Below are positions 1,102 to 34,566 of a DNA stretch of 36,731 nt, one piece after another. The notes below the pieces were generated by a model. The model saw only the letters and a list, made by a program, of their open reading frames with translations. It searched no databases and was not told where the DNA came from. The position numbers and the translations under genes are program-made. The stretch is from positions 1 through 36,731 of IMG/VR virus record IMGVR_UViG_3300021479_000004; one strand, 5' to 3'. This DNA comes from a virus. How positions within the stretch are numbered: the first letter of the stretch is position 1; the number at the start of each line of letters is the position of its first letter.

Positions 1102-3504
1102 TCACTGAATTCTTACCCAGTTACATCCTGCGGCCGATGCGCTCACGAGCTGCGATTGCAGGATTGCCGTTGTATTCGCGGCCAGCGTAGTGGGGCTAGC
1201 GCCGCCTTGGGTAATCGTTTCGCTTCCGAAAGGAATGAGAGTCGATGAACTCGCATTGATGTTTTGGATGTAGATGTTTTGTCCAGTTAGGCCGACGCAG
1301 CTTTGAAGTGTATAGTTTCCTGTTCCAAAATTCAGAGTTTGATATTGATCGACATCTTGTTGCTGGGGACAGCTTGCAAGTCCTTGAATCGTGGCGTTTC
1401 CTAAGCCAGTAGTCGAGCTGAAAAAAGTTATCTGCGTGGCACTTCTGGTTAGTATCGTCCAGGCTCCGTTTCCCGCTCCATTCGTCGTTGTGCTGTTGTA
1501 CCCCGATGGCGTTACGCCTGCGATTACGATCGGATTTCCGACTTGGCAGTTCGCAGGGGTTGCGCTGAAGGTAACGGTTACCGTATTCGTGGTTTCGGTG
1601 AGTGCTGTAGTTGAAGCCGCCGCGGCTGCGGGAGATCCATAAACGCTTGCTGACGAAAAATCCTTATTCCCATAGAGCCTGTTGATCGCGCGTTGAATTA
1701 CCGGCGTGATGTCATTGTAGTGGGAATTCTGAGTTGGATGCACCCCACCGGTTTGAATGTAGATCGTGTTGGCACTCGCACCATCGGCTCCCAAGCTGGG
1801 ATCAGCGGCCACATCCGCTAGCGCATCGGCAAACTCAATCCAATGCTGCCGAATTAGAGTGTTATACGCGTTTTTTCCCGTATCGAATCCTGTCCTGGAA
1901 ACCATCGTCACGACCACACATTTGAAACCAATGGCGTGACGCGCACGGCAATATGAAGCGAGTTGAGATTCGGTCAATGCTGCTGAAACTCCTCCGAGAA
2001 TGCTGTTTGTGCCGGCCCAAATTACATCCGTCGCCGTTGCGGTTGGCTGATAGAATGGATCAACTGTAACTCCTGCATTTAAGAGCAACTGCGACATCGT
2101 TGTACCTTGGAGCCCCATATTGCTGATGTTTCCGGTTGACGCTGGAGTTAGCGTCAAAATTCCAGGATAGGGCACGGCGACACCGAATCCCGCCCCTTCC
2201 GTAATGGAATCCCCGTCCGCGACAAGTAAGGGAGTTGCCCCATTCGCTGGACTGGCAACCGTACTGATCAACGAGGGCGTTAAACCCCTAGCTGCCATCG
2301 CATTATTGATAAACTGAACATTCGAGGCGATTTCTGCCGATGTAAGCACCCGACTATATAAAACGACGTAGTAAATTTTCCCTTGCAGGTAAGACGGATT
2401 TTGTCCATAGTGATTTCCGTTGTTGCCACCGATCTGAAAATTTCCAACGGTCTGCACGCCCGCTGAGGCTCCAGGCAGAAAGTAGTAAAATGGCTCAAGG
2501 TTGTTGATGAATAGATGATCCGTTGTATCTAAAGTCCAAGTGATCACAACGTTTCCTGGCACCGCCGCCCTTGGATAAGCTTTAGTGGTTCCACTCATAT
2601 TCGCGGAGAACAATCGATCCATAGATAGCAAGGTATCGAGTGATCCTTGCGGAGTGGCCGCAAACATCAAACCCACGCTGTTCGCCCCAGCTCCATTCCC
2701 GGCAATCGGAGATCCGAATGTACCTGCGGCTCCCGACATAAATAGTTGAATCGTCAGCGCCGAATTGAGTGAAGCGGGAATTCCGATCGCACCGTTCACG
2801 GAAAAATTTACCCCACCGGTAACGGGGATGATCGTGGGGGAAGTCCCTACACATCCGGTCGCATTGTTGCCATTTCCTGAGTAATCCACCAGGGCGCAGG
2901 GGCTCTCCGTTGCGAGCATGCGATATTCAGCCAATAACCCTGATTGAACCACTTGAGAACTTGCGCCAACAGCGCAGGTGGGACAGGAAATCGTAGGAGT
3001 TGTTCCACCGGAGGAACTGAGAGGGGACGTGCCCGTTACGCTCGTCACGGAGCCCGTACTAGCGAAATTCGTAAGTTTTGGCGCCAGTGCATTAAGGGCC
3101 GTAGTCAGGCTCACCGGAGAACCGCCGCTGATTGTCGTGCCTGTACTCGTATAAGTGAAGCTCTGTGGGCCGGTGCCAAGAGGCAATCCGATCGAGGCTG
3201 CGGCGGAATCGATGGTGATCTGCCATTGTGGGCTACCGGGAGTGATCAGCGTCACATCCCCGAAATTCACGGTAAACGATCCATTGGAACTGAGCGTCAC
3301 GGGACCTATGCGCCCAGAGTAGGGTTGTCCATTCAGTGTGTATCCGCCCCCCGTACTGGGCACGAGGATCGCGTTCATCACCGCGCCGGCGTAGGGGATG
3401 CCGTTCGAGTCTTGCACCGTGGCCGTGACAGTGGTGAACTGCGCGAAGGCGGGACTGCAGAAAATTAACAACAATGCGGCAAGGGAAAGAAACCTTTTTG
3501 ACAT
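1102..3504 (-). CDS. Secreted spike/adhesin with LamG-like and SGNH-hydrolase-like domains
   Basis: 800 residues. Residues 1-21 form a Sec signal peptide ending AFA before QFTTVTATV. Residues 22-155 form a beta-rich domain nearly identical to that of the next protein (3518-5815). Residues about 190-405 look like a LamG/concanavalin-type lectin domain (LVDYSGNGNNATG, then IYYVVLYSRVLTSAEI). Residues about 425-600 carry an SGNH/GDSL hydrolase pattern: GDSITEG, then AGTNSI, then GGVHPTQNSHY with the catalytic-type His. The C-terminal 170 residues are Thr/Ser-rich beta repeats. I infer a receptor-binding or polysaccharide-deacetylating spike. A signal peptide on a phage virion protein is unusual. 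Confidence 0.8.
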   Translation of the reverse strand: MSKRFLSLAALLLIFCSPAFAQFTTVTATVQDSNGIPYAGAVMNAILVPSTGGGYTLNGQPYSGRIGPVTLSSNGSFTVNFGDVTLITPGSPQWQITIDSAAASIGLPLGTGPQSFTYTSTGTTISGGSPVSLTTALNALAPKLTNFASTGSVTSVTGTSPLSSSGGTTPTISCPTCAVGASSQVVQSGLLAEYRMLATESPCALVDYSGNGNNATGCVGTSPTIIPVTGGVNFSVNGAIGIPASLNSALTIQLFMSGAAGTFGSPIAGNGAGANSVGLMFAATPQGSLDTLLSMDRLFSANMSGTTKAYPRAAVPGNVVITWTLDTTDHLFINNLEPFYYFLPGASAGVQTVGNFQIGGNNGNHYGQNPSYLQGKIYYVVLYSRVLTSAEIASNVQFINNAMAARGLTPSLISTVASPANGATPLLVADGDSITEGAGFGVAVPYPGILTLTPASTGNISNMGLQGTTMSQLLLNAGVTVDPFYQPTATATDVIWAGTNSILGGVSAALTESQLASYCRARHAIGFKCVVVTMVSRTGFDTGKNAYNTLIRQHWIEFADALADVAADPSLGADGASANTIYIQTGGVHPTQNSHYNDITPVIQRAINRLYGNKDFSSASVYGSPAAAAASTTALTETTNTVTVTFSATPANCQVGNPIVIAGVTPSGYNSTTTNGAGNGAWTILTRSATQITFFSSTTGLGNATIQGLASCPQQQDVDQYQTLNFGTGNYTLQSCVGLTGQNIYIQNINASSSTLIPFGSETITQGGASPTTLAANTTAILQSQLVSASAAGCNWVRIQ

Positions 3505-3517
3505 GGAGATTAGGCCC

Positions 3518-5815
3518 TCAATTGACGATGAAATAGCTTAAACACACCGGATTCGTCGTCGTCGTTCCACTGATCGTGATCGTGAAACTAGTACCTCCGG
3601 TTCTCGCTGACACCACCGGTTCGACAATGAGAGACGCGAGTGTCGAATTGCAGGTTATTCCGAGCTTAGTCCCTAAAGTGTCATCCGACTGTACAAAGAT
3701 TTGGCTGTTGGCAGTAACGGAAGTTGTATTCACAACCAGAGTGGCGTTTGTCCCTGTGGGAACAGCCACGCTACCCGCAGTAGCCGATCCGCATACGGCC
3801 GGCGATGCGCTGCTCGAGCAGTTCGATGCCGTATCGTAAGCCTTGGCATGAACGGCAGCCGCATCGGCCGCGCCGCCGTGATGCACATCCGTCACGCTGG
3901 CGTTGCCGATTGTCGCCGTATTCGATCCTGCTCCCGTTACGGCATTTCCCACTGCGATTTCGTTCGTGTCGCTATTGGCGCTGGCGCGCGTTGTCGTGCC
4001 GATAAAAACATTTGAGTTACCGGTTGTGATATTATTTCCGGCAGTCGATCCGACCGCCACGTTGCTGCTTGCCGTTGTCAAACTGTTGAGCGCACCGCTT
4101 CCGATGGCCGTATTGCTTCCGTTGCTGCCGTTTTCCGCTAGTAATGCAGTCCAGCCGATCGCGGTATTGTTCGAGGATGGAAAGGTTCCAGCCTCGGCGT
4201 TAAGAGCGTTCATGCCGATCGCTGTAACGTGGACATCTGTACCTGAACCGTTGGCCGCAAGAGCACCGGTGCCGATTGCGACATTCGTCGTCTCTGTCGT
4301 TCTCGCGCCTCGATAGACAACAACATTAGAGTCCTTGGCGCACGCACCCGCGCCGCCACCGGTGATCGCGTCGTTTACAGTGATCGCTACCGTTGAATTC
4401 ATGTCTGTTGTGCTGTCGAAACAAGGGATTCCCCCAGACGTAGCGCCTGAAACGGTTGCAGGGATCGCAATCGTTCCGGCACTTGGTGTCGCCCAAGTTG
4501 TCTGGCAATTTCCGCTGGATGCTGCGGCGGATTGCAGGAATTGATTTGCCGATGGCGATGTCGTGGGCAGCAAGATCGTGCAGGGCGATCCGGCAGCCGC
4601 GGGTACATTGATCCCTGCGGTTCCACTGGACGATCCGGGAAAGTTTAAAGGACCGTGCAGAATAAGCTGATCGCCAAATTCCACTTTTCCGGTGCCGCTT
4701 TGGACCGCCCAATGGGAGGAATCCTGAACCTGATTCGATATGTTTATCGCCCAGTTATTCACTCCCCCTGTCATCGGGTTGATGAAGATTCCATAGTTTC
4801 CGGTCGGAGGCGTACCCCCTGTGATGCCGCCGTTATAAACTCGGATCGCCGAGCATGCGCCAACGAGTCCACTTCCGGTCACAAAGCACTGCGAAGCAAG
4901 GCCAGCCAAATCAGTGGTGGTACCTGCCCCAGTATGAAACGCACTAAACAAACCTCCAAGTACCTGGGCCATATTTCCAGTCGGATGTGATGTAACCCCT
5001 ACGCCTTGCACTCCCTGAAGCGGTCCCCCGCCGCTACCCGTGAATAAATTTGTCAAAGCGTTGGCTGAAAAATACCCTCCATTGATGTGGTTACTCCCAC
5101 TCGCTGTGGCGCTATCCGCCTCAACAACCCCAAGTACCCCCGTATCTTGCGCGGTCGTTGCCGAATTCTGGTGAATTGCTTGCACGGCCCAGTTGCCAAC
5201 TGGCAATGAAGTGCTGGCCGCCAACCCACTCGTAGGATCCCCTACGAGGAGTAGTTTATTTGTCGTGCTGAACGTGAGCGTGGAAGCGCATCCTGCGGTG
5301 TTTGCGGCGGTTTCAAAGAGCACTGCGGCCGAAATCGAGCAACTGATTGTCCCTGATCCTCCGCTGGCGAAGTTTGTCAGCTTGGGCGCGAGTGCGTTCA
5401 GCGCCGTAGTCAAGCTCACGGGCGAGCTGCCGCTGATCGTGGTGCCCGTACTGGTGTAGGTAAAGGACTGCGGCCCCGTGCCGAGGGGCAAGCTGATCGT
5501 GGCCGCGGCGGAATCGATGGTGATCTGCCACTGCGGGCTGCCGGGAGAAATCAGCGTCACGTCCCCGAAATTCACGGTGAAGGATCCACTGGAATCGAGC
5601 GTCACGGGACCAATGCGGCCGGAGTAGGGATTCCCGCTCAGTGTGTAGCCGCCGCCCGTACTGGGCACAAGGATCGCGTTCAGTACGGCGCCAGCGTAGG
5701 GAATACCGTTCGGGTCTTTCACTGTCGCTGTGACGGTGGTGAACTGCGCACGCGCCGCGGGCGCAAAAAGAAACGCCCCGGCAAGTACCAGGGCGACACT
5801 GAGAATTTTTCGCAT
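3518..5815 (-). CDS. Secreted spike/adhesin with YadA-like head repeats
   Basis: 765 residues. The signal peptide covers residues 1-23 (cleavage ARA before QFTTV). Residues 24-155 match the N-terminal domain of the 1102-3504 protein almost residue for residue, so that domain is probably the shared attachment module. After it the two proteins are unrelated. Residues about 505-640 hold repeats of the NVAIGTGALAA, TAIGMNAL, NTAIGWTALL, SNVAVGSTAG type. This is the pattern of YadA-like left-handed beta-roll heads of trimeric adhesins, also seen in phage fibres. Probably a trimeric fibre. Its start follows AAAGGG and hairpin repeat copy 2. Confidence 0.8.
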   Translation of the reverse strand: MRKILSVALVLAGAFLFAPAARAQFTTVTATVKDPNGIPYAGAVLNAILVPSTGGGYTLSGNPYSGRIGPVTLDSSGSFTVNFGDVTLISPGSPQWQITIDSAAATISLPLGTGPQSFTYTSTGTTISGSSPVSLTTALNALAPKLTNFASGGSGTISCSISAAVLFETAANTAGCASTLTFSTTNKLLLVGDPTSGLAASTSLPVGNWAVQAIHQNSATTAQDTGVLGVVEADSATASGSNHINGGYFSANALTNLFTGSGGGPLQGVQGVGVTSHPTGNMAQVLGGLFSAFHTGAGTTTDLAGLASQCFVTGSGLVGACSAIRVYNGGITGGTPPTGNYGIFINPMTGGVNNWAINISNQVQDSSHWAVQSGTGKVEFGDQLILHGPLNFPGSSSGTAGINVPAAAGSPCTILLPTTSPSANQFLQSAAASSGNCQTTWATPSAGTIAIPATVSGATSGGIPCFDSTTDMNSTVAITVNDAITGGGAGACAKDSNVVVYRGARTTETTNVAIGTGALAANGSGTDVHVTAIGMNALNAEAGTFPSSNNTAIGWTALLAENGSNGSNTAIGSGALNSLTTASSNVAVGSTAGNNITTGNSNVFIGTTTRASANSDTNEIAVGNAVTGAGSNTATIGNASVTDVHHGGAADAAAVHAKAYDTASNCSSSASPAVCGSATAGSVAVPTGTNATLVVNTTSVTANSQIFVQSDDTLGTKLGITCNSTLASLIVEPVVSARTGGTSFTITISGTTTTNPVCLSYFIVN

Positions 5816-5831
5816 AGCTTCCCTTTCAGTC

Positions 5832-5871
5832 TTACCGCGAAAGCGCCCCTTACCGGGAGCCTTTCGCTTAC
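5832..5871 (-). repeat. Junction hairpin repeat, copy 2
   Basis: Lies between the stop of 5868-7025 and the start of 3518-5815, on the minus strand. The arms are AAAGGCTCCC and GGGGCGCTTT with loop GGTAA. The downstream flank CGGTAAGACTGA matches that of copies 1, 6 and 8. Confidence 0.8.
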
Positions 5872-7025
5872 TGGCTTGAAACTGTGATGTCCATAGTCGC
5901 GCTAGCCTTCACGCAGATTCCGTTGTTGAACAGCACATCGTAAATTTCGGGTGCCGCGGGAAACGTGGACGTGGCCGTGATCACGGACACCACGCTCGTG
6001 GATGGCGTGCCCGTGCAGCTCGCAGGCGCCAAGTCAAACAAACTAATTGTCCCCACCGCGGGAGTGCCCACCACGACGGTATGCAACACGCCCGGACCGG
6101 CCTTCACGACGGTAGCCGTCGTGCCCGTGATGTGCGTGTAGACGTTGTTTTGCGACGTGCCTGGCGAAATGAAAAAGTAATCGAAATTATAGGTCGAGGC
6201 AGATGCGCCACCGGGATTGTAGGCGACTGAAACAGTGGAGCACGGGCCGGCGGGAACGGGAAACGACTGCGTTATCAAAGTCGTGGTCGCCAAATTGAAC
6301 GTGAATAGCGGGCCTAACCCAACTTCATTTTGGCATCGCACGGTAACCGTGGAACCGGCCGGCCCCGCGCCCGTGTATGCAAAAGTCACAAGTCCATAGG
6401 AATTTACGAATGGAGGAGTGAAAAAATTGGCGCTATAGGCTGTTGCTGCGGGCGCTATGAGCGCGAAAGCCTTGTCCACCTGAGAAACAAGATAGCTTCC
6501 CACATTCACATTCGTCGTGGCCTGGGCCCCGGCGTAGCTAAGTTCAAATGACCCCGTAACCGCAGGGAAACACGTGATCACGACTTGCACGGTGGGAAAA
6601 TATCCGCTACCCAGGAGAGCTTGACTGTCGCCTACTGTGCTCGTCGCAGTGGCCAATAAATCGGAAATGGTGTAAACGTCGCCGATCGCATCGACCCCCT
6701 GAATCTTCATCGTCAGGTTGGTAATGAGCGTCGATGCGGCGTAGGCATAGTGCTGAGTCTGGTTTCGGTTCTGTACGGCGAACGTCTGGGGCGATCCCGT
6801 ACAGGCCGTTCCGGCTGGCGCGAGCGTTTGTTGCGTGGGGATGATCGACACTGGCGCTTGCGCGCGGGCCATCGTGGCGAGCAGCGCGAAGAGGATGCAG
6901 GCCGTCAGCTTCGCCAGGCGCTTTTTCAGCGATGGGATGAACTGCCGCGGCGTCTTGCGATTGGCGATGGCTTTGCGTAGGCCACGGATTTGCGCTGCCT
7001 TCGGGATGTGTAGTTTACGTGCCAT
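5868..7025 (-). CDS. Exported beta-rich protein, probable virion spike component
   Basis: 385 residues. The first 38 residues are strongly basic and are followed by a hydrophobic segment (LTACILFALLATMARA) with a likely signal cleavage before QAPVS. The basic leader is long for a signal peptide, so a membrane anchor is also possible. The mature part is Thr/Val/Ala-rich beta sequence. The C-terminal 85 residues (VVKAGPGVLHTVVV to the end) resemble a small beta-sandwich domain that I have seen repeatedly at the end of phage virion proteins. It is the first of three consecutive genes with export signals, so the three probably build one surface structure. Confidence 0.7.
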   Translation of the reverse strand: MARKLHIPKAAQIRGLRKAIANRKTPRQFIPSLKKRLAKLTACILFALLATMARAQAPVSIIPTQQTLAPAGTACTGSPQTFAVQNRNQTQHYAYAASTLITNLTMKIQGVDAIGDVYTISDLLATATSTVGDSQALLGSGYFPTVQVVITCFPAVTGSFELSYAGAQATTNVNVGSYLVSQVDKAFALIAPAATAYSANFFTPPFVNSYGLVTFAYTGAGPAGSTVTVRCQNEVGLGPLFTFNLATTTLITQSFPVPAGPCSTVSVAYNPGGASASTYNFDYFFISPGTSQNNVYTHITGTTATVVKAGPGVLHTVVVGTPAVGTISLFDLAPASCTGTPSTSVVSVITATSTFPAAPEIYDVLFNNGICVKASATMDITVSSQ

Positions 7026-7831: not shown

Positions 7832-7870
7832 CCTTACCGCAAAAGCGCCCCTTACCGGGGCCTTTTGCTC
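7832..7870 (-). repeat. Junction hairpin repeat, copy 3
   Basis: On the minus strand it begins at the stop codon of 7870-8373 and ends just before the AAGGAAG ribosome site of 7119-7826. Arms AAAAGGCCCC and GGGGCGCTTTT, loop GGTAA. Confidence 0.82.
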
Positions 7871-8373: not shown

Positions 8374-8412
8374 TTTTACCGCAAAAGCGCCCCTTGACGG
8401 GGCCTTTCGCTC
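8374..8412 (-). repeat. Junction hairpin repeat, copy 4
   Basis: On the minus strand, immediately upstream of the start of 7870-8373. Arms AAAGGCCCC and GGGGCGCTTTT, loop GTCAA (GGTAA in most copies). The remaining 75 bases up to 8487 hold a weak GCGGAA/TTCCGC inverted pair and nothing else that I can name. Confidence 0.8.
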
Positions 8413-8487
8413 TCTCCATTCCGTCGCGCATTACACTTATGCGGAACTTATATCCCTATGCGCTTAAGCATCGCCGTTCCGCAAAAC

Positions 8488-8999: not shown

Positions 9000-9090
9000 T
9001 CCTCTACCCGGCTCCCGTTGAGCCGAATCCGCTGTCCTGCGTAATGCGTGCGGGCCGACACGCCTTCGCGTCAACGGCCCGCAATGTCCT

Positions 9091-9135
9091 GAGCGAAAGG
9101 CCCCGGTACAAGGGGCGCTTTCGCGGTAAGGCTGT
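9091..9135 (+). repeat. Junction hairpin repeat, copy 5 (inverted relative to its genes)
   Basis: Plus-strand orientation GAGCGAAAGGCCCC, loop GGTACAA, GGGGCGCTTTCGCGG, followed by TAAGGCTGTCA. The flanking genes are on the minus strand, so this copy points against them, unlike copies 1-4 and 6. Next to it (9049-9083) lies another inverted pair, GCGGGCCG and CGGCCCGC. Confidence 0.8.
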
Positions 9136-12139: not shown

Positions 12140-12183
12140 GTCAGTTTCACCGCAAAAGCGCCCCTTACCGGGGCCTTTTGCTC
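12140..12183 (-). repeat. Junction hairpin repeat, copy 6
   Basis: On the minus strand between the stop of 12186-12584 and the ATG of 11521-12136. Arms AAAAGGCCCC and GGGGCGCTTTT, loop GGTAA, then GCGGTGAAACTGA. Confidence 0.82.
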
Positions 12184-12643: not shown

Positions 12644-13480
12644 TCATCGGCGTCCGCCCAATGTGTTGATCATCGCGGAACCGAAAACCAGTGCCACTAC
12701 GCCGAGGCCGATATATCCCGCGTTGTTTTCAAACCACGCGGTCAGGTCAGTCGGCGGATTCGGATTCGGTGTGCCGCCCGGACCTGCTGCACCGCCCGGC
12801 GGAGTAATCGAAGAAATATTCGATCCTTGCAAATGATTGCCAACGACCTGTTGCATCACGCCGTCAAGAACGGATTGCGCGTCGGACTGGTATTGATGCC
12901 CGATGGAATCCAGGATTGTCGCTTGCAATCCATATGTCGTGAGCCCGCTCGCTTTAGGCTGCCCATTAATCAGAGACATCCCGTGAGCTTTTAAGCCTTG
13001 CTGCAAGCCTGAGATCGCATCACTCGTGCTGACAGTTAGATTCCCGATCCCCGGTGACCACGTAACGGTATAGACGAGCGTACTGCCGGATGGCACTTGA
13101 GCCGGTGGACCGGATGGCGCAGGCGGTGGTGTGACCGACGCTGACGCAGGCGTCGTGGGAGCGACTCCGCCGCCGCCGGGAATCGTTACCCCGTACTGCG
13201 CGTAGAGCGCGGTAAGCGTGATGTTTCCATTGATCAGGTTGGACAAATCCTGATCCGTCGCGCCCAGCGAATTCAGAAGTTCGATATCATTGATGGAGAT
13301 TCCCTGGTCTAAGGCGGCATTCTCCATCGATGCGGAGAAATCGCCGAGGGCGTACGCGCCGGCGTGGTAGCCGTCCAAATCGTGAGCGGGTGCGGCGTAG
13401 CCCAAGAGCGCATGCGCGCCGGGCTGGTAGCCCATGCCGGCGCGAATCTCAGCGTACGCGGGATGGTTCGGGAAAAGCAT
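12644..13480 (-). CDS. Modular membrane protein with shared N-terminal tag and GGRR tail
   Basis: 278 residues. The N-terminus (FPNHPAYAEIRAGMGYQPG, then AHALLG, repeated later as AYALGD) is shared with neighbouring proteins. A middle part of about residues 50-90 is helical. A Pro/Gly-rich stretch follows, then a region with TLVYTVTWSPGIGNLTVSTS. It ends with one membrane helix (IGLGVVALVFGSAMI) and NTLGGRR. One C-terminal span with a basic end suggests a single-pass protein held in the virion membrane with its bulk on one face. It is the longest member of the cluster between 12.6 and 17.2 kb that still shows both ends. Confidence 0.75.
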   Translation of the reverse strand: MLFPNHPAYAEIRAGMGYQPGAHALLGYAAPAHDLDGYHAGAYALGDFSASMENAALDQGISINDIELLNSLGATDQDLSNLINGNITLTALYAQYGVTIPGGGGVAPTTPASASVTPPPAPSGPPAQVPSGSTLVYTVTWSPGIGNLTVSTSDAISGLQQGLKAHGMSLINGQPKASGLTTYGLQATILDSIGHQYQSDAQSVLDGVMQQVVGNHLQGSNISSITPPGGAAGPGGTPNPNPPTDLTAWFENNAGYIGLGVVALVFGSAMINTLGGRR

Positions 13481-13627
13481 TTATTTTCGTCCCCGTCGAA
13501 TCACTAAGCGATTCGATTTCATTCTTGCGGCGACTTCGATCAGAAGCCTATCGAACGGAATCTTGCCTATCCAGTTCTTGACATGCCCTCGATTACGAAT
13601 CGCCGATTTGGAAATCTGGCGCATCAT
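13481..13627 (-). CDS. 48-residue very basic protein
   Basis: Encoded by 49 codons including the stop. It starts at ATG ATG overlapping the stop of 13624-13737 as ATGA, with AAGAAGG 8 nt upstream, and ends immediately before the ATG of 12644-13480. The sequence is Arg/Lys-rich (IRNRGHVKNWIGKIPF in the middle, RRGRK at the end), with a predicted amphipathic helix and no membrane span. It could bind DNA or the membrane surface. The tight coupling on both sides makes it a real gene despite its size. Confidence 0.7.
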   Translation of the reverse strand: MMRQISKSAIRNRGHVKNWIGKIPFDRLLIEVAARMKSNRLVIRRGRK

Positions 13628-13737
13628 CGGCGACCCTTCTTTCCGCCGAGAATCCACGAGGCGAACACGATGCCGCCGGGCTGATAGCCCATGCCGGCGC
13701 GAATCTCAGCGTACGCAGGATGGTTAGGAAAGATCAT
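13624..13737 (-). CDS. 37-residue mini membrane protein (shared N-tag plus GGKKGRR tail)
   Basis: The first 21 residues (IFPNHPAYAEIRAGMGYQPG) are almost identical to the start of the 12644-13480 protein. They are followed at once by a short hydrophobic segment (IVFASWI) and LGGKKGRR. It therefore keeps only the two conserved ends of the larger family. GGGAGC lies upstream of the ATG. It overlaps 13724-13903 by 14 nt and the next gene by ATGA. It may be a real small virion peptide or the product of an internal deletion. Confidence 0.72.
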   Translation of the reverse strand: MIFPNHPAYAEIRAGMGYQPGGIVFASWILGGKKGRR

Positions 13738-13903
13738 TTTTTGCTCCCAACCGCCGGTATCGCAATCTCTGAGCCTCGCAGGCTGCCAAAGAACCGAGCA
13801 GCAAGAGCGTCGTAAATACGGGATTCCTTTCAATGATGCTGGCGATCAATCCGCCCGCATTGCCGGCGATCAAAATCCATCCGTATATGAAACACCGGTT
13901 CAT
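13724..13903 (-). CDS. Small two-span membrane protein
   Basis: 59 residues with hydrophobic segments at about 4-22 (IYGWILIAGNAGGLIA) and 28-43 (FTTLLLLGSLAAC), then a basic tail (RLRYRR). The ATG overlaps the previous stop as ATGA. No family recognised. It belongs to the membrane-protein cluster of the late transcript. Confidence 0.7.
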   Translation of the reverse strand: MNRCFIYGWILIAGNAGGLIASIIERNPVFTTLLLLGSLAACEAQRLRYRRLGAKNDLS

Positions 13904-14508
13904 CGGCGACTTTTCTTTCCGCCCATGAACCACGCAACCGCGATTACGCCGCCTGCGGCCACGAGGCCGTTCGGGTAGCCGGGGAAAAGCGTTTCTTCCG
14001 TGAACCAATCGAGCCATGAGGTGCCAGCGACGGAAGGAGCGGCGAGAGATGATGTGACCGCCGATTGCGCCTGCGCGATTTGCGCGGCGCTGGGCGCGGG
14101 CGTGCCCTGAATCAAGTCTCCCTGCGCGGCCAGCGCGGAGCCTTGCGGCGTGAGCACGTTTCCGGCGGTCAAGAGCGATCCGGAGTTGTACAGCGTCTGC
14201 GCATCCTGCGTGAGATATCCGGCATAGGTGACGCCCGTAACCGGATCGATGATGTTCGAGACTTGCACTGGCAGCGGCGCAGCGGACGGCGCGGCGCTGG
14301 ACACCTGAATTGGCACCCCAACCTCAATTGGCGGCGAAATCTGATTCGGCGGCAGCGTGGGCGTTTGTAGTGGCTCCTGTGGCGTGGACGTCGGCGGCGC
14401 CTTGACAATCGAAATGGGCGGCATGATCCGGTATTCGATCGGAGAAATGCGCGCCATGGGATCCTGCGTGAGCGCAGCACCGAGCGCGGGATGATTGACG
14501 GCGATCAT
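13900..14508 (-). CDS. Modular membrane protein with GGKKSRR tail
   Basis: 202 residues. The N-terminus (MIAVNHPALGA) is a diverged form of the FPNHPAYAE start of its neighbours. Residues about 30-80 are a Pro/Thr-rich linker. Residues about 85-160 are helical and Ala/Gln-rich. One membrane helix (LVAAGGVIAVAWFM) precedes the end GGKKSRR. The layout is the same as in 12644-13480, 14693-15469 and 15469-15828. Probably a minor virion-membrane protein. Confidence 0.73.
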   Translation of the reverse strand: MIAVNHPALGAALTQDPMARISPIEYRIMPPISIVKAPPTSTPQEPLQTPTLPPNQISPPIEVGVPIQVSSAAPSAAPLPVQVSNIIDPVTGVTYAGYLTQDAQTLYNSGSLLTAGNVLTPQGSALAAQGDLIQGTPAPSAAQIAQAQSAVTSSLAAPSVAGTSWLDWFTEETLFPGYPNGLVAAGGVIAVAWFMGGKKSRR

Positions 14509-14696
14509 CCGTTAGATTTCCCCTTCGATACGAATGCCCCTTCGTCGATTTCTGAATTCATTTCAATGAGTTTCAGAACGTTGTCACGATGTGCTTTGAA
14601 CCGGAACAAACGAACCCAGAGTTTGTGGTAGGCGAACAATCCAGCCGCCACTCCTAAACAGAATGTGACAGTGGCAGCGATGCAAATTTCGATCAT
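14505..14696 (-). CDS. Small single-span membrane protein
   Basis: 63 residues. A membrane helix covers residues about 3-24 (IAATVTFCLGVAAGLFAY). A basic segment (RLFRFKAHRDN) and a charged tail follow. The start overlaps the upstream stop as ATGA and its own stop overlaps the next start. The topology differs from the GGKKRR proteins, because here the span is at the N-terminus. Confidence 0.7.
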   Translation of the reverse strand: MIEICIAATVTFCLGVAAGLFAYHKLWVRLFRFKAHRDNVLKLIEMNSEIDEGAFVSKGKSNG

Positions 14697-15469
14697 CGCC
14701 GCCTCTTTCTTCCGCCGCCCATCGAAATCTGACTTGCCACAACTAAGAGCAGCGGAACGCCGAGGGCGATCACCAGATTCGGGACTCCCGCAATCAGCGT
14801 CGAGCCGGACATCCAGGACGTGAGCGAGCTCATGGCACCGGAAATTCCCGTCGCGGGCGGCGCTTTGTACAGGTTTCCGCCATTCAAGAGCGCCTGGCCT
14901 TGCGCCGTGAGTTTTCCCGCCGCGTTCACGAGCTGTCCGGCGGCCTGCAGCGCCTGCGCGGCCGTGGTGAGGTTGTTCGTGTTGATCGTGGACGTCGCGC
15001 CGGTATTCGGATCGGTGATGTTTATGTTCTGTCCCGTGGCCGTCGTGTCCACCGCAGACGTCGCCGCGCCGGTGGTAGCAGCGGTAAGCTGCTCGGCAAT
15101 TTGATACGGAACCGTTTGGCCCGTCTGAATGTTCGTGTAGGTGCCATCGCCGTTGCTGGTGAACTCCGTGCCCACGGTGGTGGGGTAGGACGAATACAGC
15201 GAGGGAGAAAGTTGATTCGGAAACGGCAAGGACGTCGTGTCGACCGGTGGCGTCAAGTCGATGATGGGCGACGGCTGATCGATGGCCGTGGGATCGATCA
15301 GGCTGCCAGTCGGATCGGTAGATGATGTATCGAACACCACAGGATCATCGCCGAGCATTCCGAGGAGTGCGTGCGCGCCCGGCTGGTAGCCGCGGAGCCC
15401 GCAGCATCGGTCGCCCGTGGGCGAGACTGTCAGGCCCGGCAATGGAGACGTGAGTGCGGCGTATGCCAT
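14693..15469 (-). CDS. Modular membrane protein with GGGRKRRR tail
   Basis: 258 residues from the ATG at 15469 (TGATG overlap with the upstream stop). The N-terminus begins MAYAAL and contains GLRGYQPGAHALLGMLGDD, the same tag as in 12644-13480. A Thr/Ala-rich helical middle follows. The C-terminal membrane helix (LVIALGVPLLLVVASQI) leads to SMGGGRKRRR. The middle part (AQALQAAGQLVNAAGKL, TAQGQALLNGG) resembles that of 13900-14508 (LYNSGSLLTAGNVL, then ALAAQGDLIQG), so the two are paralogues beyond the ends. Confidence 0.75.
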   Translation of the reverse strand: MAYAALTSPLPGLTVSPTGDRCCGLRGYQPGAHALLGMLGDDPVVFDTSSTDPTGSLIDPTAIDQPSPIIDLTPPVDTTSLPFPNQLSPSLYSSYPTTVGTEFTSNGDGTYTNIQTGQTVPYQIAEQLTAATTGAATSAVDTTATGQNINITDPNTGATSTINTNNLTTAAQALQAAGQLVNAAGKLTAQGQALLNGGNLYKAPPATGISGAMSSLTSWMSGSTLIAGVPNLVIALGVPLLLVVASQISMGGGRKRRR

Positions 15470-15828
15470 CAGCGTCTCCGCCCACCGAAAACTTTTGCTA
15501 GGACGAACACACCCGCGCCGATGGCGAAGATTGAATTGGGCATGCCGGGCCAGAGCGTCGACTGCCCCATCCACGTGAGCATCTGATCGAAGATACTCGT
15601 CTGCGTGGGCACCGTGGCCGTACTCACGGCGAATTGTCCGCCCGGGCCGAAAGAAATATTCGTCAGCGGCGCATCGCCTAGAAGCGACGACTTACCGGCG
15701 TCGTAGCCGCGAAACATCGGCCGCAAGCCCGCATCTTCGCGCGTGGAAAGCGCGGCATACGCGCCCAGTCCCCGTAGGTTTGGGTGCAGTCCGTTCGCAT
15801 TTCGCGTGTTGAGTCGCGCGTACGCCAT
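15469..15828 (-). CDS. Modular membrane protein with duplicated N-tag and GGRRR tail
   Basis: 119 residues. The N-terminal tag occurs twice in tandem: AYARLNTRNANGLHPNLRG and then AYAALSTREDAGLRPMFRG, followed by KSSLLGD. A short linker and one membrane helix (SIFAIGAGVFVLAKVF) end in GGRRR. The start is coupled to the upstream stop. The repeat shows the unit length of the tag (about 22 residues) and that it can be duplicated. Confidence 0.75.
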   Translation of the reverse strand: MAYARLNTRNANGLHPNLRGLGAYAALSTREDAGLRPMFRGYDAGKSSLLGDAPLTNISFGPGGQFAVSTATVPTQTSIFDQMLTWMGQSTLWPGMPNSIFAIGAGVFVLAKVFGGRRR

Positions 15829-16232
15829 TACGCGGATACCGCCTTGCGTCGATCTATAGATTCCCGATAAAACGCTTCTACGATTCCGGAGAAAATGTAG
15901 TCTTTAATTCGCTGCTCGCTGGGAAGTTGATCGTAGGGCAGAAAACACGGATGTTCCTTTTTCTCGGCGTCTTTCACTGGGCCGTACTTCCATCCCGCCG
16001 ATTTCTTTTCTTCCATCCACGATTCGTGACTTGCAGATGGCAACACTTTTTCGCCAACGGTCAAATGCGAGAGATGGAATTCAACGCCCTTAATCGCAGA
16101 CTCACGCTGCCAATCCGGAGATTCTTGCCATGGAAATTGAGACGAATCACCGATCGTTTGGCAGTACGCGCGATTCGCCGCATGGCATACCTTGGCGATT
16201 TGCAGTATATCGACCATGCCGCCGGGGATCAT
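15828..16232 (-). CDS. RyR-domain protein
   Basis: 134 residues. From residue about 8 it follows the ryanodine-receptor (RyR) repeat pattern as found in phage proteins: IAKVCHAANRAYC, then W-Q-S-A-I-K-G-V, then SHESWMEEKKSAGWKYG, then HPCFLPYDQLPSEQRIKDY. Phage and bacterial RyR-domain proteins have been linked to nucleotide-derivative binding, but no activity can be read here. The ATG at 16232 overlaps the previous stop as ATGA; an ATG at 16217 is the alternative. It is the only soluble domain protein inside the membrane-protein cluster. Confidence 0.8.
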   Translation of the reverse strand: MIPGGMVDILQIAKVCHAANRAYCQTIGDSSQFPWQESPDWQRESAIKGVEFHLSHLTVGEKVLPSASHESWMEEKKSAGWKYGPVKDAEKKEHPCFLPYDQLPSEQRIKDYIFSGIVEAFYRESIDRRKAVSA

Positions 16233-17161
16233 CCTGCCACCGCCCAGGCGCCGACTACTGCGAGCGCGATCCATCCCCATGCGGGGATTTCCGAAAGAGA
16301 AAAACCGCTGGTAGTTTGGGGCGAGGAAACGAGATCAGGAACAGTGGAGCCGCCCTGTGACGCCGTTTGCGTGGCGGCTTCCGCGGCCACGGCTGCCGCT
16401 TGCGCCGCCTGGGCCTGGAATTGCGCTGTCCAATACAGCACCATGGCATAGACCGTGAGGCTCAGCTCGCAATTGGAATTACAGAACGGCGAATCGTTGA
16501 TGGCTTTGCCGCCGCTGGGAATTCCACCGGGCCCGGACGCGCTGCCCGATGCGCCGCCGGCGGCCATGAACTGCGAATAGATTTCCTGCAAGGAATTGGC
16601 TGCGTCGGCGGGCAGAATCGTGCCGTTTTGCACGCCCTTGATGATTACGGCCATGGCGTTGTTTACAGCGGGGATCGCGGAACAGCCAAAAGCCAGATCG
16701 CGTTTCACCGCCGCGGCGTGATGCTCGAAAATCGCATCGATCAAGCCGATGATCGCGCCGACGCCTGCCACGATCCATCCCACTACGGGCACAGCAGCCG
16801 CGGGAATTAGGGCCACAGATGGCGAAGCTAGAACTCCGACCGTGGCAGCCGTGGTACCCAACGCAAGTCCGCTGACAGTTTGAAACAGATTCAATGGCTG
16901 GGCAGTTTGTCCCGTGCAATCCGGGCCGAAGCCGCCAGTCACGTCGATATTGGCGTTGGCGACGGCGGACTCCGCGGCGGAAAGCCAGGCTTGATTTTGC
17001 GTTTGCGCGGGATTCAGGTGCGCGCCGGAATAGGCTTGGATCGCGGCGTTGATCGCGTCAGTGGGAGAAAGTGGAGTGGACGCATCGCCCAGAAAGCCGA
17101 GTCCGCGCAGCATGGGATGCAGCCCATTTCCATTTCGAGTTGAGAGCGCAGCGTAGGCCAT
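16229..17161 (-). CDS. Large modular membrane protein with N-terminal tag
   Basis: 310 residues from the ATG at 17161 (TAATG overlap). The N-terminus MAYAALSTRNGNGLHPMLRG is the best copy of the tag. A helical segment follows, then a central membrane-active stretch (residues about 105-150, with VPVVGWIVAGVGAIIGLIDAI), an Ala/Gly-rich linker, an Ala-rich helix, and a C-terminal span (GWIALAVVGAWAVAG) without the basic tail. It has at least two membrane regions and four cysteines, three of them near PFCNSNCEL. Possibly a DNA-delivery or membrane-tube protein, by inference only. Confidence 0.72.
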   Translation of the reverse strand: MAYAALSTRNGNGLHPMLRGLGFLGDASTPLSPTDAINAAIQAYSGAHLNPAQTQNQAWLSAAESAVANANIDVTGGFGPDCTGQTAQPLNLFQTVSGLALGTTAATVGVLASPSVALIPAAAVPVVGWIVAGVGAIIGLIDAIFEHHAAAVKRDLAFGCSAIPAVNNAMAVIIKGVQNGTILPADAANSLQEIYSQFMAAGGASGSASGPGGIPSGGKAINDSPFCNSNCELSLTVYAMVLYWTAQFQAQAAQAAAVAAEAATQTASQGGSTVPDLVSSPQTTSGFSLSEIPAWGWIALAVVGAWAVAG

Positions 17162-17997
17162 TAGTCTCTCGTAAGCAACCACAGCCCGCCGAGGATCGCG
17201 CCCACGACGAGTAATTCGCCGATGCCGCTCGAAAGAAACGGCTGCGCGGCGGGCTGCGCGATCATCGCGCTGCCGCCCGGACCGATCGCTGGGCCCACGA
17301 CGTTCTGTACCGTTTGTCCGCCCACCGATTTCAGCGCGCCCGAAGCGTCGAGGAGCACCGTGCTCAAATCCGAAGTGACTCCATTCAATCCGCGAACGCC
17401 AGCGGGGACGTATCCCGCCATTTGGCCATCGGAATCTTCCGGATATTCCGCGTGTGAGCCATCAATCGTGCTCCACCATTCGCGGCGAAAGAAAAAACGC
17501 GGTGCGACTCCGAACTGCGCGCCGGGATGCGCGGCATCGAGCGGATACCACGCGCCGTTCAGGTTCACTTCCACGTAGATATGGCTAAACAGGTCGGGAT
17601 GATTCGCGTCGGCGGCCACGGTCACGAATCGCGTTTCGTAGCCGATCGTGCCGAGCAGCGCGGGAATCATGTTGGCGTTGATATCGTCGCAGTCTCCCGC
17701 CATCAGTTTCAGTAATTCCGTTGTCGGACGGACCGCTTCTTTGGTCACCGGATCGTTCACAAAATAGAAATTCGTCAGAATCCAGTTGTAGATCGCGCGC
17801 ACCTGCCCCCATGAATCGTACGGAAGGACACCCGCATTGCGCACGATATCGATGGCGGTACGGTTGACGAACGAATCCTTCCACGCATCGTCCAAGAGGC
17901 CGCGCAGTTTCCAAATCGTTTGCTCCGTGCCTGCATCGCCGCCGAGTAGCGGCGTCACGAACAACGCGGCCGAATCTTCTGTGGGGAAAATTCCCAT
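17161..17997 (-). CDS. Transglutaminase-like protease-fold protein with C-terminal membrane anchor
   Basis: 278 residues. The transglutaminase-like triad is present in the usual context: Cys103 in GDCDDIN, His139 in FSHIYVEV, and Asp154 in WYPLDAA. Such domains act as thiol hydrolases or proteases, or as crosslinkers. The last 22 residues form a membrane helix (ELLVVGAILGGLWLL). It is the first gene of the leftward late transcript and overlaps the next start. Likely a virion-membrane enzyme for assembly or entry (inferred). The ATG has no clear ribosome site, only CTCCCGC upstream. Confidence 0.78.
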   Translation of the reverse strand: MGIFPTEDSAALFVTPLLGGDAGTEQTIWKLRGLLDDAWKDSFVNRTAIDIVRNAGVLPYDSWGQVRAIYNWILTNFYFVNDPVTKEAVRPTTELLKLMAGDCDDINANMIPALLGTIGYETRFVTVAADANHPDLFSHIYVEVNLNGAWYPLDAAHPGAQFGVAPRFFFRREWWSTIDGSHAEYPEDSDGQMAGYVPAGVRGLNGVTSDLSTVLLDASGALKSVGGQTVQNVVGPAIGPGGSAMIAQPAAQPFLSSGIGELLVVGAILGGLWLLTRD

Positions 17998-19687: not shown

Positions 19688-19829
19688 TCCTTTCCTTTTT
19701 TCTCCACATTCCCACATCTTTTCCTCAGACTCTTTAGACACACACAGCGATTTTTTCTTGACCGCGTATCGGGAATACCGTAGCTTCGTCCCCGCTTGCC
19801 GTGCACCGCGCACACGCGAGCTTTGTAGT

Positions 19830-19868
19830 GAGCGAAAGGCCCCGGCAAGGGGCGCTTTCGCGGTGAAA
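19830..19868 (+). repeat. Junction hairpin repeat, copy 7 (plus strand)
   Basis: Plus-strand copy in front of the methyltransferase: GAGCGAAAGGCCCC, loop GGCAA, GGGGCGCTTTCGCGGTGAAA. It has the same orientation as its downstream gene, as on the minus strand for copies 1-4 and 6. The stretch 19700-19829 holds a weak TTGACC promoter-like site at about 19757 and no gene that I can support. Confidence 0.8.
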
Positions 19869-25669: not shown

Positions 25670-26004
25670 ATTTGCGCAGCGCAAAGAGCGGACGGGTTGG
25701 AGATTCCCGAAACCGCGACGCACGAAACGGGGTGACTAAACGAGGACACTCCTCACCAGTTAGCCGGGCGCGATCGGAGACTAGTACCGCCCTCGCGCCC
25801 GAGCCCCCGCGTCTGCGTTTTTTCTCTCTGCGTATTGAACTGGTCGAAAACTCCGGTTCAGTACTGACGGCGGCGAATGTCACCGTCCCCGATTATTTCC
25901 TGGGTTGCTGCGTGTTCGATGCCGTGTACAAACATGCCATCAATATCTCATCGCCGCTCTATTACATCAAGCGATCGGAAACATATCGGAAGCGCGAGCC
26001 ATGA
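25666..26004 (+). CDS. Hypothetical protein coupled to the HerA-like ATPase
   Basis: 112 residues. It starts at an ATGA overlap with 25487-25669 and ends at an ATGA overlap with the ATPase gene. The first 50 residues are basic and low in complexity. The second half is compact (PRLRFFSLRIELVENSG, then VPDYFLGCCVFDAVYKHAIN). Probably translated in step with the ATPase. No family recognised. Confidence 0.55.
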   Translation: MNLRSAKSGRVGDSRNRDARNGVTKRGHSSPVSRARSETSTALAPEPPRLRFFSLRIELVENSGSVLTAANVTVPDYFLGCCVFDAVYKHAINISSPLYYIKRSETYRKREP

Positions 26005-28208
26005 TTTTACTGGGCTGGGAAATCGGGACGGGCAAGCGCGTGGAAATCCCGGAGACGGGGCATCTGGCGTGGTTTGGCCAGACGCAGCTTTCCGGGAAAA
26101 CTACGGCGCTCGAGGCCATCGCCTATCGCGGTGAACTGAGGGCCGTCGCGTTCATCACGAAACAGGGCGAGGGGGGATTCCTTACGGGGAGAATGATCCC
26201 CCCTTATTTCTCTGAGCCGACAAACGACGAAGAGCAACCGCTCTGGCGCTGGGTTAAATCCATCCTGGAAGCAAGCCAACAAAGGAAACTAAATTTTGAG
26301 GAGGCTTGGATCATTCGGTGCTGCGAGGATCCCCGTTCCGCCAAAACACTGAAAGACGTGCACGAAAACATCAAGGCGCTGCTCGGCGGCGAGGGCGGCT
26401 ACATCGAAAAAGGGCGCGGTAAGAAAAAGAAAAAAGAATGGAAGTACACGCGCAAGCCAGTCAGCGGCATCAACGCTGGCGTCTATACCTCCCTGAAAGC
26501 GTATTTCGACATCGTAATGCCGCAGCTCGCGCGCCTGCCCTACACGAAAAAGCTGGCCCTGGGCGACGGACTGAACGTGATGGACCTGCGCGAATACGCC
26601 ATGGAAACCCAGGCGCTCGTGATCCGATCCGTGATGGAGTGGGTCTACCAACATGAAAAAGGCGTCCGCGTCATCGTCCCCGAAGCGCAAGACTTTGTTC
26701 CTCAAGGGAAAAACTCCCCGGTAAAGATGGCTTGCGAGACGCTCGTACGTAAGGCCGGCGCGAACAAAAACTTCATGTGGCTCGATTCGCAGGATATGGC
26801 CGCGGTGGACAAAATCATGCTGCGCGCCTGCTCGATCGTAGGCATCGGAGTGCAAACCGAAGGCCACGAAATCGAGCGCAGCCTCGCGGGCCTCTTCACG
26901 CCAGCTCTGAAACCCGTGGACATCGCGCGGCTGAAAATCGGCGAATTCTTCGTGCGCACGCCCGAAGCTAAAGTTTCCAAGGTCTACGTGCAGCCCGCCT
27001 GGATGGAATCGGAATTACACGCTCAGGCCATCGCCAAGGGCGAGGAGCGAGTCGAAAGCGCGAGGCAAATGTTGAGGGCATTCAAGGATGCAAGGGGGCA
27101 GGGACGCAAGGATGCAGGGAAACCCCATCAGTTATTGCAAGTCCAAATCCAGGAGCCGCCCGATGTCCAAGAAACCGAAACATCACCGGAATCCAATGGC
27201 GACTCTATCGTCGCAGGAACTCAACGCGATGAAGCCCGGACTGGCAATGAGCCACTTAATTCAGGGAGCGGCGCATCTGGTGCAGTACGCGATCCTGTCT
27301 GGTTCGATGCCGAAATCCAAGAAGAAGCCGAAAAAATCCCGTCCCCAATCCTAAACGAAAGTGAGCCTGGCAAACATGAAGAAACTACGCAACCCGGCGA
27401 TACCCGTATCGCCGGAAGTCCTGAACGAACTGAAAGCGCAAGCGAAACAGCACCTATACATGAGGCCGTACTTGGAACATCTGTTCGTTCCCAAAGAGGC
27501 GCGAATGCGCCAGGAAGTGAGGGCGCGATGCCGGACAAAGAAACGCCAGCCGAAGCGTTAACTCAACTGTTAGACAGTCGCACACTCGATATTCCTAGGT
27601 GGTTCAAGGAGCCGCTGCGTGATCTATTGAAAGATCACGCAGTTCTGATCGAAGCCCATGATGCGCTGGCTAAAGAAGTGGTTCGTCTCCGCAACGTCAT
27701 TACTGCGCGGGGCGATACTAGCCAAAAAGCGCAGCAAATTATTTACGATACCGCGAACGATGCGTTAGCCAAGCATCCGGTCACGGAACACGAATCACAA
27801 ATCACGAGTCACGCTCCCAACGGCCACGGCCTCCGCTTCACCGTGCCCGACCTGGACTACATCTACGGCTACGTGAAGTCCCGCGCCGCCGTGGACCCGA
27901 CCATCCTGGAAATCCTCACGCACCGCCCGGAGATTCGCGTCAAGGTGGAGCGCCAGGTGATCCACGCCAAGGGCGATACCATGGACGGCCGGCTGGCACT
28001 GCTGATCCACGAAGGTTTCTTCGACAAGCCGCGCGATCGCGGCGCAGTCGGCGCCGAACTGCGCCGCCGCGGCGCCCTGGCCGACAAAGCCAATCTGAAA
28101 ATCCTGAGCCCGTATCTCGCCAAGCTGACGAGCTACGGTTTCCTAACCCGCGAAGGCGATGCCTACAAGTCGGTGCCAGAAATGAAAGCGCAGATTGCGA
28201 AGGCGTGA
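26001..28208 (+). CDS. HerA/FtsK-type P-loop ATPase, candidate genome-packaging ATPase
   Basis: 735 residues from ATG 26001. Walker A is GQTQLSGKTT (26-35) after HLAWF, one residue longer than GxTGxGKT. Walker B is VRVIVPEAQDF (222-232), with Glu-Ala in the HerA position. A Lys-rich insert lies at 139-146. The ATPase core ends near residue 340. Residues about 365-515 form an acidic, Ser/Pro/Glu-rich linker. The C-terminus has a coiled coil (555-590) and a winged-helix-like domain (655-735). HerA/FtsK ATPases package DNA in PRD1-type tailless viruses, so this is the natural packaging motor, although it lies among replication genes. A plasmid-like partition or transfer role is the alternative. 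Confidence 0.75.
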   Translation: MILLGWEIGTGKRVEIPETGHLAWFGQTQLSGKTTALEAIAYRGELRAVAFITKQGEGGFLTGRMIPPYFSEPTNDEEQPLWRWVKSILEASQQRKLNFEEAWIIRCCEDPRSAKTLKDVHENIKALLGGEGGYIEKGRGKKKKKEWKYTRKPVSGINAGVYTSLKAYFDIVMPQLARLPYTKKLALGDGLNVMDLREYAMETQALVIRSVMEWVYQHEKGVRVIVPEAQDFVPQGKNSPVKMACETLVRKAGANKNFMWLDSQDMAAVDKIMLRACSIVGIGVQTEGHEIERSLAGLFTPALKPVDIARLKIGEFFVRTPEAKVSKVYVQPAWMESELHAQAIAKGEERVESARQMLRAFKDARGQGRKDAGKPHQLLQVQIQEPPDVQETETSPESNGDSIVAGTQRDEARTGNEPLNSGSGASGAVRDPVWFDAEIQEEAEKIPSPILNESEPGKHEETTQPGDTRIAGSPERTESASETAPIHEAVLGTSVRSQRGANAPGSEGAMPDKETPAEALTQLLDSRTLDIPRWFKEPLRDLLKDHAVLIEAHDALAKEVVRLRNVITARGDTSQKAQQIIYDTANDALAKHPVTEHESQITSHAPNGHGLRFTVPDLDYIYGYVKSRAAVDPTILEILTHRPEIRVKVERQVIHAKGDTMDGRLALLIHEGFFDKPRDRGAVGAELRRRGALADKANLKILSPYLAKLTSYGFLTREGDAYKSVPEMKAQIAKA
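27163..27354 (+). CDS. Possible overprinted ORF inside the ATPase linker (1)
   Basis: 63 residues in a different frame from the ATPase. ATG 27163 has AGGAG 7 nt upstream. The product is basic with a believable fold: KKPKHHRNPMATLSSQELNA, then AMSHLIQGAAHLVQYAIL, then a Lys-rich end. The ATPase frame across the same bases is low-complexity acidic linker, as expected if this frame is the constrained one. Confidence 0.45.
   Translation: MSKKPKHHRNPMATLSSQELNAMKPGLAMSHLIQGAAHLVQYAILSGSMPKSKKKPKKSRPQS
27376..27561 (+). CDS. Possible overprinted ORF inside the ATPase linker (2)
   Basis: 61 residues. A GTG at 27361 is an alternative start. The sequence LRNPAIPVSPEVLNELKAQA then MRPYLEHLF looks like a ribbon-helix-helix-type strand, helix and helix. 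It is followed by a basic tail (RARCRTKKRQPKR). The ribosome site is weak. It follows 27163-27354 by 21 nt in the same general direction, so the two could form a nested pair. Confidence 0.4.
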   Translation: MKKLRNPAIPVSPEVLNELKAQAKQHLYMRPYLEHLFVPKEARMRQEVRARCRTKKRQPKR

Positions 28209-31778: not shown

Positions 31779-31970
31779 ATGGACCCTTCACAAAAACAGT
31801 TCAGGGCAAGCACCGCAGAGAACTCTCCCTTACTTGCGCCGGAAGAGCATGCCTGGATCGAGCAATTGACCGGGAAAACCCTGACCAACGAGGAAGCGCA
31901 GACCCTCTTGCGCGAAGCGAAACTCACCGCATCCTGGGAGGATATCTATGGCAAGCGCCGGTCAGCTTAA
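31779..31970 (+). CDS. Small acidic protein at the end of the rightward half
   Basis: 63 residues. The middle (LLAPEEHAWIEQLTGKTLT, then NEEAQTLLREAKL) is helical and charged. No clear ribosome site. It ends inside hairpin repeat copy 8. Upstream, AGTACC (31713-31718) and GGTACT (31727-31732) form a small hairpin just after the helicase-methylase. No family recognised. Confidence 0.5.
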   Translation: MDPSQKQFRASTAENSPLLAPEEHAWIEQLTGKTLTNEEAQTLLREAKLTASWEDIYGKRRSA

Positions 31971-32004
31971 CCGCAAAAGCGCCCCTTACCGGGGCCTTTT
32001 GCTC
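31968..32004 (-). repeat. Junction hairpin repeat, copy 8 (convergence point)
   Basis: Minus orientation, arms AAAAGGCCCC and GGGGCGCTTTT, loop GGTAA, flank GCGGTTAAGCTGA. It lies where the two half-genomes meet and overlaps the last codon of 31779-31970. A bidirectional terminator is the simplest reading here. The next 88 bases up to 32092 hold no gene that I can support. Confidence 0.8.
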
Positions 32005-33999: not shown

Positions 34000-34566
34000 T
34001 CACTCCAAGAGGCTAAAAACAATCCATCCGGCCACTACCACCGCGCCGATCCATAGGGCTGTGCCGAGCGACCAGCCTTGCGGCAGCACGCTCGCCGCGT
34101 CCACGGGCGTCCCGTCAGCGGCAGTCGCGCCCGGCAAGGGCGCGCTATTCAGAGCCACGCTGTACTGGCTCTGAATGTTGGAAACGATCGTTTGCACGTA
34201 GTCCTGCGTCTCGAGTGGGGCGTAATTCATCCAGCCGGCGCCGTGCGCGGCGATCGCCGCGTCCATGTTGCCCGGACCCCAGTTGTACGCGCCCAGGGCT
34301 TCCGCCACGTTCCCCGAATAGCGCGCCAGCATCTGGGCCAGGTATTGCACGCCGCCCTGAATGTTTTGCGTGGGATCGGTGGGATCGACGCCCAGGTCCG
34401 CCGCCGTCGCCGGCATCAACTGAAAAATCCCGATCGCGCCGGCCGGGCTCACGGCGGATTCGTTCAAGCCCGATTCCTGCATGGCCACTTCCAGCGCCAG
34501 CCGAGGATCCACGCCATAAGCCGCAGCGGTGGAAAGAATCAGCGCGGAAATATCGGAGGAAGTCAT
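34000..34566 (-). CDS. Lytic transglycosylase with C-terminal membrane anchor
   Basis: 188 residues from ATG 34566 (ATGA overlap with 34563-34793). SLT-type motifs are in order: catalytic Glu31 in LEVAMQESGLN, then AGAIGIFQLMPATAADLG, then YNWGPGNMDAA. A linker and one membrane helix (LGTALWIGAVVVAGWIVF) end the protein. It cleaves peptidoglycan to an anhydro product. Membrane-bound transglycosylases in virions help PRD1-type phages cross the cell wall on entry, and the anchor fits that role. It is distinct from the lysozyme used for release. Confidence 0.87.
   Translation of the reverse strand: MTSSDISALILSTAAAYGVDPRLALEVAMQESGLNESAVSPAGAIGIFQLMPATAADLGVDPTDPTQNIQGGVQYLAQMLARYSGNVAEALGAYNWGPGNMDAAIAAHGAGWMNYAPLETQDYVQTIVSNIQSQYSVALNSAPLPGATAADGTPVDAASVLPQGWSLGTALWIGAVVVAGWIVFSLLE

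Follow-up and report, generated by a model that had tools for sequence, protein, structure and literature searches.

How membrane-containing phages choose the membrane proteins of their particles is poorly understood. PRD1 (Tectiviridae) has several small virion membrane proteins with one helix each, and its P7 is an SLT enzyme with a helix behind the catalytic domain. The membrane proteins of PM2 are proposed, in the excerpted text of one report, to be capsomer templates that register capsomers on the membrane (PMC6356626); in Jorvik, according to an excerpt of its description, Slt adjoins hypervariable hydrophobic proteins that belong to the structural module and were detected in the virion sample (PMC10589892). 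No common tag is described in either excerpt (PMC6356626, PMC10589892). TssL, a bacterial C-tail-anchored protein, has a single helix at its extreme C-terminus and is without an N-terminal signal segment (PMC3426401).

The window analysed here (the whole stretch of DNA, a virus record of 36,731 bases) encodes five proteins, A to E, that are comparable with the small one-helix membrane proteins of PRD1, together with an SLT enzyme laid out like P7. It differs from PRD1 in that the PRD1 genome is 15 kb and those of the present clade are 34-37 kb, and in that no PRD1 protein was seen with the tag I or the GxPN anchor described below; among the PRD1 proteins scanned, a helix lies near the C-terminus in P20 and P22 only, both without a basic tail. 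PM2 and Jorvik (Vinavirales) have much smaller genomes and no sequence relation shown to A-E, and the double-jelly-roll elements of an excerpted survey measure about 7-18 kb (PMC5894146). On this comparison, PM2 and Jorvik are to be read as precedents for a role, not as evidence of kinship.

The record has a 127-bp direct terminal repeat and is therefore probably a complete genome. Its minus-strand arm (17997 to 1102) encodes the tagged proteins and, downstream of them, putative particle proteins, and the opposite arm carries replication-type genes (a DnaB-like helicase, a helicase-methyltransferase). With ten more IMG/VR contigs, each of 34-37 kb, the window forms a clade of 11 genomes. At the sensitivity used, neither the reference phages nor the viral or GTDB contigs yielded a relative outside the clade. 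The viral-contig scans with the block's first enzyme (TG), with the capsid candidate and with the ATPase matched these ten contigs only; two scans of the GTDB contigs gave no match; and INPHARED gave none with TG, the capsid candidate, the ATPase, the proteins at 11521, 8488 and 10638, or A, and two chance-level matches with B. At that sensitivity the reference phage collection yielded no relative of the clade, which thus appears to represent an undescribed group of phages, and the modules of A-E give clues to how particles are built in it. The DNA pattern of tag I detected six of the ten relatives among the viral contigs, as well as one contig (L050) whose ORFs show no relatedness. The best SLT match, Chlorobiaceae phage CV-1-33, is annotated with a P22-like portal and coat and is otherwise unrelated.

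The gene order TG, A, B, C, D, E is kept in all 11 genomes, with the block placed between TG and the putative particle genes; D was found in every genome except G009. The ORFs named in a preliminary description of this region exist, on the minus strand, and the features of the block are as follows.

17161..17997, minus strand: TG, a transglutaminase/papain-fold enzyme with a C-terminal helix, which opens the block (Pfam Transglut_core, 4.2e-8)
16229..17161, minus strand: protein A, 310 residues, with one tag I, a central hydrophobic segment and a C-terminal helix without a basic tail
17096..17158, minus strand: tag I in A (shuffle-tested alignment, profile)
15469..15828, minus strand: protein B, 119 residues, with a tandem double tag I and then the shared anchor
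15763..15825, minus strand: tag I copy 1 in B (B1), present in 11 of 11 genomes
15706..15762, minus strand: tag I copy 2 in B (B2), likewise in 11 of 11
15472..15585, minus strand: anchor module of B (W-x3-ST-x3-GxPN, helix, GGRRR)
14693..15469, minus strand: protein C, 258 residues
15359..15391, minus strand: GYQPGAHALLG unit of C, identical to that of E
14696..14830, minus strand: anchor module of C
13900..14508, minus strand: protein D, 202 residues, without a tag, its middle homologous to that of C
13903..14016, minus strand: anchor module of D
12644..13480, minus strand: protein E, 278 residues
13340..13480, minus strand: N-terminal element of E with GYxPGAxxLG units
12776..13093 (limits approximate), minus strand: putative exchangeable middle domain of E, its pattern discordant with phage relatedness
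12647..12742, minus strand: separate anchor of E (W[LF]ENNA..., helix, GGRR); the E profile matches E only

Counts from promoter and terminator scans of the block were at chance level. A RyR-domain protein (15828-16280; Pfam 8.6e-11, several function-unassigned PHROGs) is inserted between A and B; to our knowledge, RyR domains are rare in structural blocks of phages.

The preliminary description had proposed one common N-terminal tag for the family, which holds for A and B. In each of the 11 genomes, A has a single copy of this tag I (AYAxLSTRNxNGLHPxxRGLG, about 20 residues) and B has two; it is thus kept in all ten relatives. It aligns far better than shuffled sequence (A-B1 z 16.9, A-B2 z 11.4), with 0 of 2000 shuffles reaching the observed scores, and the tandem duplication noticed earlier in 15469-15828 was borne out (B1-B2 z 10.4). 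Among 13,455 six-frame ORFs, a profile built from the 11 A tags alone picked out the two B copies in all genomes, and besides the A and B tags it matched nothing; the next match had an E-value of 0.43, and on C the match was limited to MAYAAL. E and C carry GYxPGAxxLG instead. Its copy number in E varies between genomes, C has one unit in 5 of the 11 (the window and four relatives), and in the window the exact GYQPGAHALLG is common to both proteins (z 8.7). D, which had been credited with a weaker tag, contains neither element. By the shuffle test in the window, likeness between the N-termini of A and C, A and E, and D and E was not beyond chance, and that between B and C was borderline (12 of 2000 shuffles reach the score). 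Judged from these alignments, tag I and GYxPGAxxLG are two unrelated N-terminal elements. The pattern G[YL]xPx(3-6)[LM]G, common to the tags, was fitted post hoc, and its rarity was not counted as evidence. Residues ~190-205 of TG, between the enzyme and the helix, include a tag-like xGYxPxxxRGLG stretch in some relatives (GYRPQTLRGLG in G002); its score was reached by 1-10 of 500 shuffles in five genomes and by 82 of 500 in the window, so that the likeness is statistically only suggestive.

The C-termini were examined by a simple hydropathy scan, which placed a single hydrophobic helix within ~30 residues of the C-terminus of B, C, D and E and found no N-terminal hydrophobic segment in A-E. 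B, C and D have homologous anchors of ~38-45 residues (z 9.8-11.8 in the shuffle test), comprising W-x3-ST-x3-GxPN, a short helix, GG and Lys/Arg. The B anchor profile matches C and D, with E-values from 8e-8 to 0.8; the anchor of protein E has the same layout with a separate sequence. The one C-terminal tail suggested earlier is therefore, in B, C and D, a homologous module that extends beyond the basic residues, and does not include E. Similarly, the helix and basic end assigned to every member but A was confirmed for B to E, with A as the exception, and not for the ORF at 13624, in which no helix was predicted. A C-terminal helix together with the absent N-terminal segment fits C-tail anchoring of A-E, as in TssL, from which the short tails of B-E differ in being strongly basic. 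The charge pattern is ambiguous on orientation: the net charge of the terminal nine residues is about +3 to +5, and Lys/Arg are almost absent from the 22 residues ahead of the helix, a combination that under the positive-inside rule would place the tail in the cytoplasm, the opposite of C-tail anchoring. The helices are predicted to be short, and the B helix contains a Lys. PEP-CTERM and GlyGly-CTERM signals consist of a motif, a helix and a basic tail in that order, as do these anchors. B, C, D and E differ from the proteins that carry them in having no N-terminal signal segment and no NCBIfam match, and assignment as PEP-CTERM-type sorted proteins is therefore unsupported.

The middles of the proteins had been described as different, which is incorrect for C and D; these are homologous over ~95 residues (z 8.1). 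The ORF at 13624, previously counted as a family protein, has its start most likely at 13737:

13624..13737, minus strand: fusion ORF of 37 residues, in which an E-type tag continues in frame into a D-type tail (matches in G001)

The 5' end of this ORF matches E of G001 at 90% over 51 bases, and its 3' end matches D of the same genome at 91% over 56 bases, closer than the window's own D. From these matches it is probably a recombination scar.

The influence of selection on tag I was assessed at the codon level. Copies of the tag within genomes differ at 0.48-0.66 of third codon positions and at 0.20-0.31 of first and second positions; it is therefore the peptide that is kept, and not the DNA. 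Covariation was tested by exact permutation in a small sample of eight de-replicated genomes. Amino-acid identity between A and B1 was 0.778 within genomes vs 0.701 between genomes (p 0.0006), and between A and B2 it was 0.660 vs 0.603 (p 0.0018); B1 and B2 showed no within-genome excess. The codons of A and B1 were likewise more alike within genomes (p 0.0006), which points to some gene conversion as an explanation of part of the covariation. Those of A and B2 were not (p 0.85), and the covariation of this pair points to the protein level, as expected of a shared partner, which fits better than gene conversion.

These observations bear on the view that the shared modules are mere traces of duplication and recombination among neighbours, the tag having no separate function. 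Such a history would account for the middle and anchor common to C and D, for the 37-residue fusion, which shows module ends joined by recombination, and for the A-B1 codon likeness. However, the tag is all that A and B detectably share, B retains two copies in all genomes, and within A conservation is highest in the tag (0.72), followed by the middle (0.59) and the C-terminus (0.47), although in B the tag is not the best-conserved part. We consider it quite unlikely that the tag is such a passive remnant.

The most economical reading of tag I, given its constraint, its double copy in B and its covariation, would be that it serves as an address. We tentatively propose, as a reading with somewhat less than an even chance, that A-E are membrane-anchored virion or assembly proteins and that tag I is a docking peptide for one shared partner. 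The single helix at the extreme C-terminus would insert each of A-E into a membrane post-translationally, and tag I would act as a short linear peptide that docks on one partner, most simply a membrane-apposed capsid or scaffold protein. A would offer a single tag; B, with its two, could bridge two sites, and GYxPGAxxLG of E and C may be a second repeatable peptide, perhaps with the same sort of role. The docking reading is suggested by the restriction of tag I to A and B across the six frames, in fixed number in every genome, and a shared partner by the protein-level constraint and within-genome covariation. The proposal is further favored by the block, which adjoins the putative particle genes in all genomes, and by SLT, which also ends in a helix, as in PRD1 P7. 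Of the modular address and anchor proposed in the preliminary description, the N-terminal peptide combined with a C-terminal membrane anchor is retained, and the single tag is not. A peptide that recurs on membrane proteins with no other relation to each other would be a direct handle on particle membrane protein choice and could be used as bait for the partner.

TG, whose Cys, His and Asp are invariant across the 11 genomes, raises another explanation for the tags, namely that they are propeptides cut near RGLG or LLGD at maturation by a viral protease, possibly TG, so that each tag would be an assembly-stage handle that is then removed. The tags occupy the very N-terminus, their ends are commonly LGD/LGS-like steps, and an enzyme with this triad and a helix stands first in the block in all genomes, as would be expected. 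However, the LGD pattern was noticed post hoc, Transglut_core proteins are not proteases only, and a simple propeptide would not need both of the B copies that are kept. Cleavage of this kind is assigned a small probability.

Exchange of modules was also apparent between genomes. G004 and G005 are 99% identical in TG, 89% in the N-terminal part of E and 88% in its anchor, yet only 38% in the E middle; G004 and G009 are 59% identical in TG, yet 74% in the E middle. Several versions of this middle are thus discordant with relatedness, which suggests an exchanged cassette. A second enzyme is also modular:

34000..34566, minus strand: SLT transglycosylase with a C-terminal helix

The helix part of this protein is kept in four relatives (L070-L073) whose head is SLT_3 rather than SLT. 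An exchanged E middle is what would be expected of a host-facing part, and the site of action of A-E might accordingly be the host envelope, where they would make up a device for entry or lysis, or a membrane patch surrounding SLT and TG, instead of parts of the virion that face the capsid; the tags, bound to each other or to a common subunit, would then keep the complex together. That TG opens the block and that the genome encodes a second possible wall enzyme, SLT, with its kept C-terminal helix would suit such a device. Against this, hydropathy reveals no signal peptides in A-E, and the block shares its arm and its direction with the putative particle genes. An envelope complex is therefore regarded as unlikely, and docking on a partner in the particle or its assembly is preferred.

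The type of phage was sought among the putative particle proteins. Of the genes typical of tailed phages (Caudoviricetes), PHROGs recognised neither a terminase nor a portal or HK97-type capsid among ~30 main ORFs, a search in which distant versions could be missed, and SLT is 49% identical to PRD1 P7 over 89 residues. The 25905-28208 protein, the candidate for a packaging ATPase of the kind seen in Varidnaviria (tailless, internal-membrane phages), has FtsK/HerA-like motifs by eye; it has no Pfam, PHROG or PDB match, and its profile against the ATPases of P23-77, SH1 and PRD1 was not significant. The model of the capsid candidate at 9231 was unusable (pLDDT 26), its alignment being presumably too uniform. 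The 8488 and 7870 proteins align with each other, and 8488 is modelled as a beta-sandwich (mean pLDDT 74), for which the fold matches are middling and point to no clear family; the matches listed include a chain of HHIV-2, an internal-membrane virus, among many unrelated ones, and no weight is given to families missing from them. Comparisons of P23-77 VP16 and VP17 with the capsid candidates, and of 9231 with 8488, were not significant. The phage is probably tailless and membrane-containing, though neither this type nor membership in a known membrane-phage lineage is established: the capsid-candidate model failed, the ATPase was unconfirmed by profile and there is a tail-spike-like match (3518-5815). 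The wider picture, of a new 34-37 kb lineage, probably tailless and membrane-containing, in which N-terminal peptides sort C-tail-anchored proteins to one partner and modules recombine, is possible but doubtful as a whole.

Two spike-like proteins (GDSL-lipase type and tail-spike-like, 1102-5815) have 386 bp in common near their 5' ends at 83% identity. Both of them, and the 5868-7025 protein, have a signal-peptide-like hydrophobic N-terminus, which is unusual for virion proteins. Near-identical elements with a GC-rich hairpin and a T-run recur between genes in both orientations, and look like dispersed terminators:

near 490-530, 5830-5870, 7835-7870, 8375-8415, 9090-9130, 12140-12183, 19829-19868 and 31961-32004, both orientations: intergenic elements of ~40 bp
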